Below are positions 4,111 through 11,493 of a DNA stretch of 60,014 bases, one piece after another. Position 1 is the first letter of the stretch; each line of letters starts with the position of its first letter. Under the pieces are notes generated by a model. It was not told the DNA's origin and made no database searches. It was given only the letters and a program-made list of their open reading frames with translations. The position numbers were made by a program, and so were the translations under genes. The stretch covers positions 1 through 60,014 of the forward strand of contig JANQQW010000035.1 of assembly GCA_028284885.1 (NCBI GenBank). The letters are read 5' to 3'. The stretch is from Planctomycetaceae bacterium (lineage in GTDB: Bacteria > Planctomycetota > Planctomycetia > Planctomycetales > Planctomycetaceae).

Positions 4111-4234
4111 ATAGGACGAACGGCCGAATCGGTGATTGAAGGGTGGTCTGTCTACGGGTAGTCTCTCGTGTAGGTGCTCCAACGGGGGTTCTTCCCCGAG
4201 TCGTTCCGACACGCCTGCAACGAAGAGGTGTCCG

Positions 4235-5206
4235 ATGTCCCGTCCGAGTCGTCGTGGTTTCACCCTGATCGAACTGTTGGTGGTGATCGCGATCATCGCG
4301 ATCCTGATCGCCCTGCTGCTGCCGGCCGTGCAGCAGGCTCGCGAGGCCGCTCGCCGGTCCTCCTGCAAGGCGAACCTGAAGCAGCTGGGCATCGGCCTCC
4401 ACAACTACCACGACACCTTCGGTCGCTTCTGCCGCGGCGGCGGCGGGCCACACAGCCGGGCGAGCGAGTACAGCGGCCTGATCTCGCTGCTGCCGACGAT
4501 CGAGCAGAACGCGCTCTTCGAACTCTGGGAGAACGGCGCGTATCCGCGGTCCTGGACCGGTGGTCCGGAGAACGTCACGCAGGTGTCGGTCTTCCTCTGC
4601 CCGTCCGATCCCGTCCCGGCGCCGCACGGTTCCGCCGGCGGCAGCGCTCAGAAGAACTACTTCTTCTGCTATGGCACCACGGCCGCGGGCAACTACAACC
4701 AGGCGACCACCGGGTTGTTTGGCATCGAGTCCTACAGCCGCTTCCGCGACATCACCGACGGATCGAGCAACACGATCGCCTTGTCCGAACGGGCCCACCG
4801 GCAGGGGGGCAGCGACGTGCTCGGCAACACGCGGCACAGCGTCACCCCGCTCGACAAGTCGCAGTGCCTGTCCCACGTCAACGGGAACGTCTACGACGAC
4901 TCGGCGAGCATCGTCAGCTGGAGCGCGGGGTCGCTGTGGTCGTTCGGGCACCCGCACTGGAACGCGTTCACGACCATCACCGCCCCCAACGGTCCCTCCT
5001 GTTCGACGGGCGGCGACAACCCGAGCAACCAGTCCGGCATCTGGTCCGCCAGCAGCCGGCACACCGGCGGCGTGCAGGTCGTGATGGCCGACGGGGCCGT
5101 CCGGTTCATCAGCGAGAACATCGACTCGAACGGCGGGCCGTCCGGCTTCGGACTGTGGGGCTCGCTCGGCACGCGCGCCGGCGGCGAAGTCGTCGAACTG
5201 CCGTGA
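4235..5206 (+). CDS. DUF1559 type IV pilin-like secreted protein
   Basis: This 323-residue protein is a typical planctomycete DUF1559 protein. The N-terminus has a prepilin peptidase site and pilin helix, [19 protein letters not shown], followed by the [14 protein letters not shown] helix. The C-terminal domain contains the GLYNYHD-type and [14 protein letters not shown] motifs common in this family (here [13 protein letters not shown]). The ATG at 4235 has an AAGAGG ribosome binding site, and an in-frame upstream ATG at 4136 would bury the pilin signal behind 33 residues. DUF1559 proteins are abundant in planctomycetes and are thought to form pseudopili or surface structures; the role of this copy is unknown. 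Confidence 0.92.
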
Positions 5207-7640: not shown

Positions 7641-8330
7641 TCAGAGCAGTTCGGCCGAGTCGCCGAGGGCGTCCCAGTCGAACGGGCCGGACGTCTGCGT
7701 GATGTGGTCGCCCGGAGCCGGCTCGGCGTGGCAGACGAGACACGACTTGGCGAGAGCGACCGGACGAGCTTCCGGCTCGGCGTTCGGCTGATGGCAGTGG
7801 GAGCAGCACTGCCAGACGCCTCGACTCGTCCCGGCGACCGTGAAGGTCGGCCGGCAGTCGTCGGCCGTGCCGAGAGCGACCAGACGGTCCGCGTGCGAGT
7901 CGTCGAGGAGCTGCAGTGCGGCCGTCGGGCGTGCGCCGTTCCCGGACGCCGGTTGGCCGCGCTGCAAGGAGACGAGTCCGGCCCCGATCATCACGCCCGC
8001 GATACAAACCGCGGCGAGCGCCAACACGGTCGGTCGCGTGCGAACCGGAGTGGTCGGGCGAGTTTCGCGGGCGACCGTCGGCCGTTCCCGGACGACGACC
8101 GCGCCTTCGCCCGCGACGACCGGCAGCCGGCCCTCGTAGCTGGGCAACGCGTCGGCCTCGTCGTCGGCGAGAACCTCGTGCCAGAGATCGACGGCGGGCC
8201 GCATCGCCTCGGCGAGGCGGCGGCAGTCGTGGCACGCTGCCAGGTGCCGCTCGAGGGCGGCGTCCGTGTCGGCGTCGCCCGTCGGGAACGGGCCACGCGT
8301 CAGTAGGTCGAAGGCGATGTCGCAGTTCAC
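7641..8330 (-). CDS. Transmembrane anti-sigma factor with two CxxCH motifs
   Basis: This 229-residue protein begins one base after the stop of the ECF sigma gene, the usual place for its anti-sigma factor. The cytoplasmic part has a zinc anti-sigma motif H29-x3-C33-x2-C36 (HLAACHDC). A single membrane helix lies at about 102-121. The external part contains two CxxCH motifs, C176-C179-H180 and C197-C200-H201, just after an extra Cys (175). CxxCH is the covalent haem c attachment motif, so the sensor half may be a small dihaem domain; a zinc site is the alternative. A GTG start is used. Anti-sigma role: strong from context. Haem: inference. Confidence 0.8.
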   Translation of the reverse strand: MNCDIAFDLLTRGPFPTGDADTDAALERHLAACHDCRRLAEAMRPAVDLWHEVLADDEADALPSYEGRLPVVAGEGAVVVRERPTVARETRPTTPVRTRPTVLALAAVCIAGVMIGAGLVSLQRGQPASGNGARPTAALQLLDDSHADRLVALGTADDCRPTFTVAGTSRGVWQCCSHCHQPNAEPEARPVALAKSCLVCHAEPAPGDHITQTSGPFDWDALGDSAELL

Positions 8331-9040: not shown

Positions 9041-9982
9041 CTACTCGACGTCGAAGACGACGATCCCCTCGCCCCCCGCGGCGGCGGTCGTGCCGTCGGG
9101 GTGGAAGGCAATCGACCGGACGGGGCCGAGGTTCCAGTCGTACCTGGCCACCTCCCGACCGGCGGTCCAGTCCCACAGCCGCAGCGTGCGGTCCGTGCTG
9201 GCGGACGCGAGCAGCGGCAGCGTCGGGTGGAAGGCGACCGCGTTCACCCGTTGGTCGTGTCCCTTCAGATCCCGTGGCTCCGGCTTCGCCTCGCCGTCGA
9301 TCCGCCACATGCGGACCGTCCAGCCCATGGCCGCGGCCAGCGTGCGGCCGTCGGGGGAGAAGGCGAGCGACACCGGCTGCGTCGGCGTCAACAGTTTCCG
9401 CAGCCCCGGCCGGCCGATGCGACGGAGTTCGACCCGGCGTTGCTGGGCGATCGCGATCCGGTCCGGCTCGACCGGCGACCATGCGACCGCCGTCGCCCCA
9501 CTGCCGTCGGCACGGCCGACAGGGTTGGGGCTCGGCTCGAACGGCGAGTTCACGGCGACCTCGAACAGCAACGCCTCGCCACCGCCGCCGCTGGTGTACT
9601 TGTCCGCGGCTCCACTCAGGATGGTCGTGTGCTGGCCCGGCCCGACCGTCAGCGTGACGGGGGGCCGGGTGTGCCCGGTGAGCACGGCCGTCCAGCCGGT
9701 CGCCCGGTGGCCAGCGTGCACGTCGCCGCTCCCGGAGCCGAACACGAACCACTCGCCGCACGCGGAGTACGCGACGGCCCGCACGTAGTTCTGGCAGGCG
9801 TGCCGTTCCGTCGGACTGGAGTCCGCAGGCAGCTTCCAGTGCAGTACCTGCCCGCGACTGCGGCCCCGGCCGGCCGGCATCAAGCCGGTTCCCGCGGCGA
9901 GTTCCGTCCCGTCCGGCGAGTAGGCCAGCGAGGTGACCTGGTACTCCCGCGGCTCGGGCGGCCGCTCGTGCAACCGGAACAT
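9041..9982 (-). CDS. WD40-repeat beta-propeller protein
   Basis: This 313-residue protein consists of WD40 repeats, the clearest being KGHDQRVNAVAFHPTLPLLA with STDRTLRLWDW, and NLGPVRSIAFHPDGT. Others are YQVTSLAYSPDGTELAAG and QPVSLAFSPDGRTLAA. About six or seven blades can be drawn, enough for one propeller. There is no signal peptide, so it is probably cytoplasmic, possibly a protein-interaction scaffold. It starts 7 bases after the NUDIX gene and precedes the ECF sigma gene by 79 bases, all on the same strand. No enzymatic motif is seen. Confidence 0.85.
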   Translation of the reverse strand: MFRLHERPPEPREYQVTSLAYSPDGTELAAGTGLMPAGRGRSRGQVLHWKLPADSSPTERHACQNYVRAVAYSACGEWFVFGSGSGDVHAGHRATGWTAVLTGHTRPPVTLTVGPGQHTTILSGAADKYTSGGGGEALLFEVAVNSPFEPSPNPVGRADGSGATAVAWSPVEPDRIAIAQQRRVELRRIGRPGLRKLLTPTQPVSLAFSPDGRTLAAAMGWTVRMWRIDGEAKPEPRDLKGHDQRVNAVAFHPTLPLLASASTDRTLRLWDWTAGREVARYDWNLGPVRSIAFHPDGTTAAAGGEGIVVFDVE

Positions 9983-9989
9983 CGGCCCG

Positions 9990-10511
9990 CTACTTCATCG
10001 CGAAGAAGAGTCCTGCCCAGACCTTCGGGTCGATCATCGCCCCTTCGTCCTCTTTCGACTGCAGCCACTGCCGCACCCGCCGCAGGGGCACCAAGTGGAC
10101 GAGGATGTCCTCCGTGTCGTCCCCGCCGCCGCTCCCCTGCTTCCTCAGCCCCTCCGCGCGGACGAACGTGACGACCTCGCTGGAGAGGCCGGCCGACGGC
10201 GGGCCGGCGGTGAGGGCCACCATGGACTTCGCCCGGTAGCCGGTCTCCTCGTAGAACTCCCGTCGGGCGGCGGTCAGCAGGGACTCGTCCTCCTCGCCGG
10301 CGACGTCGCCCGCAAGGCCGGCCGGGAGTTCGATGCAGACGGAGTTGACCGGCTTGCGGTACTGCTCGACGAACAGCATCTCGCGGTCCTCCGTCACCGC
10401 CACGATCACGGCGACCGCCGTCGTCTTCAGCCGTTCGACGTACTCCCAGGTCCCGTCCTTCACGAGCCGCAACCACTTGCCGCGGCCGAGGGTCTTGGGC
10501 TTCGCTGGCAT
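9990..10511 (-). CDS. NUDIX hydrolase (ADP-ribose pyrophosphatase-like)
   Basis: This 173-residue NUDIX hydrolase would cleave a nucleoside diphosphate linked to another group. The Nudix box is visible as AARREFYEETGYRAK, preceded by ELPAGLAGD. The Gly-to-Glu spacing is slightly longer than canonical, as in many ADP-ribose pyrophosphatase relatives. The SAGLSSEVVTFVRAEGL segment fits that subgroup. The start at MPAKPKTLG was chosen because the protein then has normal length; longer in-frame extension would run into the divergent ThuA gene. It is the first gene of the minus-strand cluster with WD40, sigma and anti-sigma genes. Substrate preference is inferred only. Confidence 0.88.
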   Translation of the reverse strand: MPAKPKTLGRGKWLRLVKDGTWEYVERLKTTAVAVIVAVTEDREMLFVEQYRKPVNSVCIELPAGLAGDVAGEEDESLLTAARREFYEETGYRAKSMVALTAGPPSAGLSSEVVTFVRAEGLRKQGSGGGDDTEDILVHLVPLRRVRQWLQSKEDEGAMIDPKVWAGLFFAMK

Positions 10512-10617
10512 GGGCAACTCGCTTGGGAACGGGGCGCTTCGAGGGGTATCATCGTTTTCGAGCGGCCGTGCGGCAAACCCGCGTTCGCTCGTGCACGTCC
10601 CCGTCTCGGAGCCCACC

Positions 10618-11493
10618 ATGACACGCCGTCTGTTCGCCGGTCTCGTCCTGCTGACCACGTTCGCCCTGCTGGCTCCGCCCGCCCAGGCCGAGGGCAAGAC
10701 GAAGGCCAAAGTGCTGTTCCTCACGCAGAGCAAGGGCTTCACGCACGGCTCCGTCCGCCGCAGGGGCGAACTCGCCCCCGCCGAGATCGCCATGAAGCAA
10801 CTCGGCCAGCAGACCGGCCTGTTCGACGTCGACTGCAGCCAGGACGCCGCCGCCGACTTCACCAAGGAGAACCTCGCCCGGTACGACGTGGTGATGTTCT
10901 ACACGACCGGCGTGCTCCCCATCTCCGACGAGGCCCGCGAGTACTTCGTGAACGACTGGCTGAAGCAGAAGGGGCACGGCTTCATCGGCTTCCACTCCGC
11001 GACCGACACCTACCGCTTCAAGCCGGACCACAGGGACTTCGAGAAGCACAAGTGGTACATCGAGATCGCCGGCGGCTCGTTCAACGGGCACCCGTGGGGA
11101 GCCGGCTCGGACGTGGTGCTTCACGTGCACGACCCCTCGCACGCCGCCATGCAGCCCTTCGGCACCGAGTTCGAGCACAAGGACGAAATCTACCAGTACT
11201 ACAACTGGCACCCTGAGAACGTCCGCGTGCTGATGAGCCTGGACATGGGCAAGACGAAGCTGAAGAAGCCGTACCACGTGCCGGTCGCGTGGTGCCGCAG
11301 CTGGGGCGACGGGAAGATCTTCATGAACAACCTCGGCCACCGTGAGGACACGTGGACCAACGAGGCGTTCCTGAAGTCGACCGAGAACGCCGTCCGCTGG
11401 GTGCTGGGCGAACTCGAGGGCGAGACGACCCCGAACCCCGACGTCTCCAAGGCCTGGGACGAGAAGAGCAAGAAGGACGCCGGAGGGGCGTGA
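10618..11493 (+). CDS. Secreted ThuA domain protein
   Basis: This 291-residue protein belongs to the ThuA family, which has a class I glutamine amidotransferase-like fold and is linked to carbohydrate metabolism; many planctomycete members are secreted. Signal peptide: residues 1-24 (LLTTFALLAPPAQA). Motifs include KVLFLTQSKGFTHG, YDVVMFYTTGVLP, GFIGFHSATDTYRF and the late VPVAWCRSWGDGKIFMNNLG with GHRED, all typical. The start at MTRRLFAGL gives a complete signal peptide. It is monocistronic, divergent from the NUDIX gene and followed by a hairpin. Probably periplasmic sugar or glycoside metabolism. Confidence 0.9.
   Translation: MTRRLFAGLVLLTTFALLAPPAQAEGKTKAKVLFLTQSKGFTHGSVRRRGELAPAEIAMKQLGQQTGLFDVDCSQDAAADFTKENLARYDVVMFYTTGVLPISDEAREYFVNDWLKQKGHGFIGFHSATDTYRFKPDHRDFEKHKWYIEIAGGSFNGHPWGAGSDVVLHVHDPSHAAMQPFGTEFEHKDEIYQYYNWHPENVRVLMSLDMGKTKLKKPYHVPVAWCRSWGDGKIFMNNLGHREDTWTNEAFLKSTENAVRWVLGELEGETTPNPDVSKAWDEKSKKDAGGA

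Follow-up and report, generated by a model that had tools for sequence, protein, structure and literature searches.

A conserved membrane anti-sigma factor of the Planctomycetia with an external CxxCH tail: a candidate haem c sensor beside an ECF sigma factor

Planctomycetes are very rich in ECF sigma factors, and for few of these is a signal known. The question raised by the stretch of DNA analysed here (60,014 nucleotides from a Planctomycetaceae bacterium, contig JANQQW010000035.1; hereafter ‘the window’) is whether one such factor might be governed by haem, given that the anti-sigma gene beside it encodes two copies of CxxCH, the usual haem-attachment motif of cytochromes, beyond a single membrane helix. 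A preliminary description of the locus had proposed that the protein could be a cytochrome-like redox or electron-transport sensor, with a neighbouring sulfatase as a possible target. The reading that we prefer, at a probability of roughly 0.6 as judged from sequence, is that the family is real and conserved and that the window protein is a haem-c-bearing membrane anti-sigma factor, whose tail acts as an extracytoplasmic sensor.

The two genes of the pair (Table 1) are separated by a single base between the sigma stop codon and the anti-sigma start codon (a GTG), exactly as had been described from the open reading frames. The sigma gene is matched in Pfam by sigma70 region 2 (E 1.6e-17) and region 4 (E 2.1e-11). 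The WD40-repeat and NUDIX genes that precede it possibly share one transcript with the pair, and a sulfatase gene follows the pair on the same strand after about 100 bases. The architecture attributed to the anti-sigma protein was likewise accurate to the residue (an H-x3-C-x2-C motif, one membrane helix and two CxxCH motifs beyond the membrane), and the interval 7728-7808 that had been singled out spans exactly C175 to H201. Elsewhere in the window (4136-5206, plus strand) lies a gene for a DUF1559 protein with a type IV pilin-like N-methylation motif; genes resembling it recur near the pair at other loci.

Table 1. Position of features in the window, with the loci of one recurrent gene context; A1-A4 are the family alignments defined in the text.
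Feature	Position or loci	Strand	Basis or remark
ECF sigma gene, 209 aa	8332..8961	(-)	sigma70 regions 2 and 4; Pfam and NCBIfam matches
Membrane anti-sigma factor gene with CxxCH tail, 229 aa	7641..8330	(-)	translation, NCBIfam match, family alignments A1-A4
Zinc anti-sigma motif H29-x3-C33-x2-C36, cytoplasmic domain	8223..8246	(-)	invariant in A1 and A3
Membrane helix, about residues 102-124	7959..8027	(-)	AlphaFold2 with alignment; hydrophobic stretch
C159, lone external Cys paired with a CxxCH unit	7854..7856	(-)	invariant in A1
C175-C176-S-H-C179-H180: first CxxCH (176-180) and preceding partner Cys175	7791..7808	(-)	subfamily I conservation
C197-L-V-C200-H201: second CxxCH, end of predicted helix 190-201	7728..7742	(-)	invariant in 25 subfamily I sequences
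WD40-repeat gene	9041-9982	(-)	ends 79 bases before sigma start
NUDIX gene	9990-10865	(-)	precedes WD40-repeat gene
mtd-/fae-like context loci	L063, L077, L079, L080, L083, L084, L088, L096		

Its adjacency to the sigma gene and its helical N-terminal domain with the H-x3-C-x2-C motif mark the window protein as a probable zinc anti-sigma factor of class I, for which inhibition of the sigma factor is predicted. The NCBIfam anti-sigma match (E 9e-6) lies below the curated cut-off, as does that of zf-HC2 in Pfam (E 0.041 in the window protein; best E 2.9e-4 among homologues), and in profile searches of the PDB both ChrR and chain B of the M. tuberculosis structure 3hug were matched at the stretch that holds the N-terminal zinc motif. 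An AlphaFold2 model built with a 25-sequence alignment places the helices of this domain at residues 3-12, 20-32, 34-42 and 44-53, with mean pLDDT values of 86-95 for residues 1-40 and 81 for residues 41-50. A single helix separates the cytoplasmic sigma-binding domain from the tail (the external domain being delimited by the hydrophobic membrane stretch), so that the tail is predicted to be extracytoplasmic. Within the tail, the same model has residues 176-179 in a short helix and residues 190-201 in another, which stops at the second CxxCH, with pLDDT values of about 50-73.

The family to which this protein belongs is both broad and divergent. The first search, over 59 relatives, yielded weak but widespread matches. 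As a profile of 201 positions, the alignment of those matches (A1; 27% mean column identity) detected the family in 70 of the 170 genomes of the window’s own family and, class-wide, in 96 of 398 Planctomycetia genomes, usually as one copy per genome; a stricter cut-off gave 27 matches over 392 genomes of the phylum, all but one inside the class, and the sole match outside it aligns only to profile positions 8-135 (of 201). Among the cultivated hosts is Blastopirellula marina DSM 3645 (L164). Ninety-two neighbourhoods were fetched (L149 was dropped as not being a family member), and a further 24 loci were found in genome contigs with a second alignment (A2), where a single-sequence query had returned no matches. 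Dropping sequences more than 70% identical reduced 116 proteins to 97, and 84 of these possess an external domain. In a tree of the family two subfamilies are split with support of 99/96: subfamily I, which includes the window protein (alignment A3; 25 sequences, 24% mean column identity), and subfamily II (alignment A4; 46 sequences, 20% mean identity).

Across that divergence the CxxCH motif is constant. All 84 non-redundant sequences that have an external domain contain it, 37 of them once and 47 twice. Histidine directly follows 131 of the 132 external CxxC motifs (the exception overlaps a CxxCH in L091), as compared with 22% of the CxxC motifs in other reading frames of at least 250 residues at the same loci, a control that may include some real cytochromes. 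Apart from CxxCH and its partner cysteines, conservation outside the membrane is slight: the only invariant external residues of A1 are C159, C176, C179 and H180; both CxxCH motifs provide the invariant external columns of A3, where C175 is at least 90% conserved; and in A4 the equivalent of C159 and one CxxCH are invariant. Because it is invariant among homologues that average just 20-27% identity, the motif is not a product of chance, and its invariance throughout the class indicates that selection acts upon it. That the window protein has a second CxxCH reflects its subfamily, for this motif is invariant in subfamily I and missing from most members of subfamily II; the number of motifs changes about three times on the tree.

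Equally regular is the presence of one additional external cysteine for each CxxCH. The ratio is exactly 1:1 in 70 of the 84 proteins and at least 1:1 in 82, the exceptions being L122 and L125 (genus g126), which keep both CxxCH motifs and have one and no extra cysteine, respectively. These two proteins have in common a His-Trp pair between the motifs, possibly a replacement ligand. Beyond the membrane no further invariant histidine or methionine occurs in A1, A3 or A4, and thus cysteine is the best candidate for the second ligand, if haem c is present.

The coupling of this tail to an ECF sigma factor is also a property of the family. A homologous sigma gene stands immediately upstream in 71 of the 78 fetched loci with an external domain (one other lies at a contig edge), most commonly with a 4-base overlap between the two genes; the expectation that the same fusion would be found beside ECF genes in other planctomycetes was therefore borne out. 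CxxCH homologues with no detectable adjacent sigma gene were also seen (L105, L106, L108, L109, L092 and L130). At 13 loci of family f11 (L132-L137, L141-L143 and L145-L148) the homologue stops just past the membrane helix and is devoid of CxxCH, and no related sigma gene occurs inside the fetched 20 kb; in most of these loci it is followed by a short gene that we take, from reading its sequence, to be PilZ-like. This absence, probably a single evolutionary event, suggests that tail and sigma factor were lost together and work together.

In the fetched loci the sigma gene is the only neighbour to be conserved family-wide. The suggestion that the downstream sulfatase might be the target did not survive this comparison, in which a sulfatase adjoins the pair in the window only and none is conserved beside it in other genera. 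Directly upstream of the sigma gene in five genera is an mtd-like gene, mostly with a preceding fae-like gene, which we presume to be C1 genes of tetrahydromethanopterin metabolism (Table 1); the window genome also has the Fae family, away from the pair, and this context is a lead only. A BamA-like gene is found downstream in three genera, and in g58 and g66 the downstream genes are BamA-like, DUF447-like and RFAP-synthase-like. In 11 loci of family f5 (L111-L121) the bipartite element GTATC-N15-GCGCTA, often with TAAT after it, precedes the sigma coding region at a variable distance of about 140-340 bases. At other positions in eight genomes it is no commoner than a reversed control, so that no regulon can be read from it, and it may be an ordinary promoter. 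A further candidate signal, ACCGA-N16-GCCG, was traced to the codons of the sigma N-terminus.

What, then, does the tail resemble? The search against cytochrome profiles that the preliminary description had called for gave a divided answer: cytochrome families do match, and the matches are weak and sub-threshold. In Pfam scans of subfamily I, Cytochrome_C7 is found in 13 of 25 sequences (best E 1.8e-4) and Paired_CXXCH_1 in 6 of 25 (best E 0.0032), and multihaem cytochrome families are the commonest external matches, again sub-threshold, in subfamily II; no external profile match reaches its curated cut-off among the matches listed. Searched against the PDB, A3 matched 15 sequences, mostly c-type cytochromes (MtrC-like, split-Soret and others) at E values of 0.03-0.5, while the search with subfamily II (A4) returned mostly noise and a few multihaem cytochromes at E values near 1. 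As none of these matches is significant alone, and all are driven by CxxCH, they speak for compatibility with cytochromes rather than membership. A Foldseek search of the PDB, for which the query was a model of low external confidence, returned only matches with E values above 7.

A predicted means of attaching haem is encoded in every genome tested. The cytochrome c assembly domain PF01578 is found above cut-off in one or more genes of all 80 other genomes tested, and in two genes of the window genome, where ResB is absent from the matches listed. Many of the PF01578 genes sit in open frames of about 1,200-1,400 residues, a length compatible with a fusion of the CcsBA type. Bacterial CcsBA, when purified, can load haem onto CXXCH peptides down to a 9-mer; both thiols and the histidine are required, and the neighbouring helix is not (PMC8112865). 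A CxxCH tail exported by these planctomycetes could thus plausibly serve as a substrate. Joint loss of the cytochrome assembly genes and the tail was not found: the f11 genomes that are devoid of the tail keep PF01578, and for that reason the attachment gene is a condition that the genomes satisfy and does not discriminate between explanations.

Taken together, the sensor proposed at the outset stands in one part and is provisional in the other: CxxCH is kept in all orthologues beside ECF genes, while haem binding is inferred for a tail that is modelled at low confidence. In the mechanism that we favour, the cytoplasmic zinc domain would hold the adjacent ECF sigma factor, and the external tail would be a minimal c-type cytochrome, with two haem c groups in the window protein and one in most of subfamily II, supplied with haem by the CcsA-type system of these genomes. 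The second axial ligand would most likely be the conserved extra cysteine that goes with each CxxCH, so that the haem would be His/Cys-ligated. The signal (redox or gas sensing) would consist in an altered redox state, ligand or loading of the haem, to be relayed through the membrane helix by conformational change or proteolysis such that the sigma factor is freed. Counting against this mechanism is the size of the shortest external domain, at 42 residues small for a folded monohaem cytochrome.

A second difficulty is that the conserved unit of one cysteine plus CxxCH offers three cysteines and one histidine, which also fits a tetrahedral zinc site. The main rival to haem c is accordingly a zinc module, in which a Cys3His site would be built from each lone cysteine and its CxxCH. 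The window protein would have two such sites and most of subfamily II a single one, and they would either shape the tail or free their zinc on oxidation. We consider this unlikely, and retain it as a serious alternative because the 1:1 ratio, with four ligands per site, fits such a site too. The very short external domains would suit a loop closed by zinc, and AlphaFold2 run without an alignment (mean pLDDT 43) produced short strands around the motifs, at pLDDT values below 60. Those ribbon-like strands are, however, largely gone once the alignment is supplied, and that model, of low confidence in its external part, displays no zinc ribbon or beta knuckles at either motif. The near-constant position of the histidine directly after CxxC is likewise awkward for this rival, since the binding of one zinc by an adjacent cysteine and histidine is unusual. 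In genus g126 both CxxCH motifs are kept where the partner cysteine is partly or wholly gone, and the external matches in Pfam and the PDB favour cytochromes over zinc families. Finally, with only about three changes in motif number on the tree, few independent events lie behind the 1:1 pattern, and it is therefore not strong evidence for either haem or zinc.

Less probable again is a thiol-disulfide switch, in which the lone cysteine would exchange with CxxC and the tail would report external oxidants with neither metal nor haem. The conserved external residues are all cysteines plus one histidine, and RsrA and ChrR (the latter a weak match here) are zinc anti-sigma factors that sense thiols or oxidants, both of which points are in its favour. 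Such a switch has no need, however, of the invariant histidine after the second cysteine, and haem attachment to an exported CxxCH is to be expected wherever a CcsBA-type system is present (as may be extrapolated from PMC8112865). Very improbable is a non-sensory tail, with the motif kept by descent, the pair regulated elsewhere and the nearby sulfatase as its target, for the motif is invariant class-wide despite the low identity, no sulfatase is kept beside the pair in other genera, and the 13 f11 loci lack both the tail and the sigma neighbour.

If the tail does carry haem c, external redox or gas chemistry would be linked to transcription through an anti-sigma factor, in one family with cultivated hosts, and the tail would offer a simple setting in which to examine haem c on a peptide scaffold of very few residues, with cysteine as a possible ligand. 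A more ambitious proposal, which we regard as tentative and somewhat less probable than its converse, is that of a class-wide system in which the anti-sigma factor is itself a c-type cytochrome with His/Cys haem, such that transcription would be set directly by external electron flow, by a gaseous ligand or by the status of cytochrome maturation.

The relation of this protein to known systems is one of partial likeness to several. With the class I zinc anti-sigma factors ChrR, RsrA, RslA and RsiW it shares the helical H-x3-C-x2-C domain and the adjacent ECF sigma gene, and with RsiW-like members the single membrane helix; to our knowledge, none of the four has an external CxxCH tail. A survey of class I anti-sigma domains from 2020 (PMC7406223) uses neither ‘heme’ nor ‘cytochrome’ in its main text, and the main text of a review of ECF and anti-sigma factors is likewise free of haem and cytochrome. 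An ECF sigma factor and a membrane anti-sigma factor are linked to haem in the cell-surface signalling of haem uptake, of the HasI/HasS/HasR and FecI/FecR type (PMC11442138). There, however, the signal is given by an outer-membrane receptor that binds free haem, whereas the window anti-sigma factor itself carries the haem c motif. The multihaem c-type cytochromes (c7/c3, MtrC-like and paired CXXCH) resemble the tail in having two close external CxxCH units and in weak profile similarity. In contrast to them, the tail is too short and divergent to be placed in any family, has no conserved distal histidine, and is fused to an anti-sigma domain.

The nearest precedent is found in the sCache_heme domains (DUF3365/Tll0287, GSU0582 and GSU0935), which are extracytoplasmic, of sensor type and possessed of a strictly conserved CXXCH. 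Tll0287 is a sensor-type domain with a Cys/His-ligated haem c, and near-total conservation of CXXCH has been taken as evidence of haem c in this group (PMC12889525). The sCache_heme domains differ in having a Cache fold and in their described outputs (kinases, chemoreceptors and cyclic-di-GMP enzymes); ‘sigma’ does not figure in the main text of the same paper (PMC12889525). The window protein has no Cache match in Pfam, and among the matches listed a Tll0287-like one occurs in a single member, at an E value of 0.98. Nor does a Cache fold appear around the CXXCH here, where external domains are as short as 42 residues and Foldseek, run on the low-confidence model, came back empty. A published anti-sigma factor with CXXCH, haem c or cytochrome c was not found in the open-access literature searched, in which an earlier mention is possible. 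With its strictly conserved motif, the tail suggests a previously undescribed kind of haem-based sensor, one that would steer transcription from outside the membrane.
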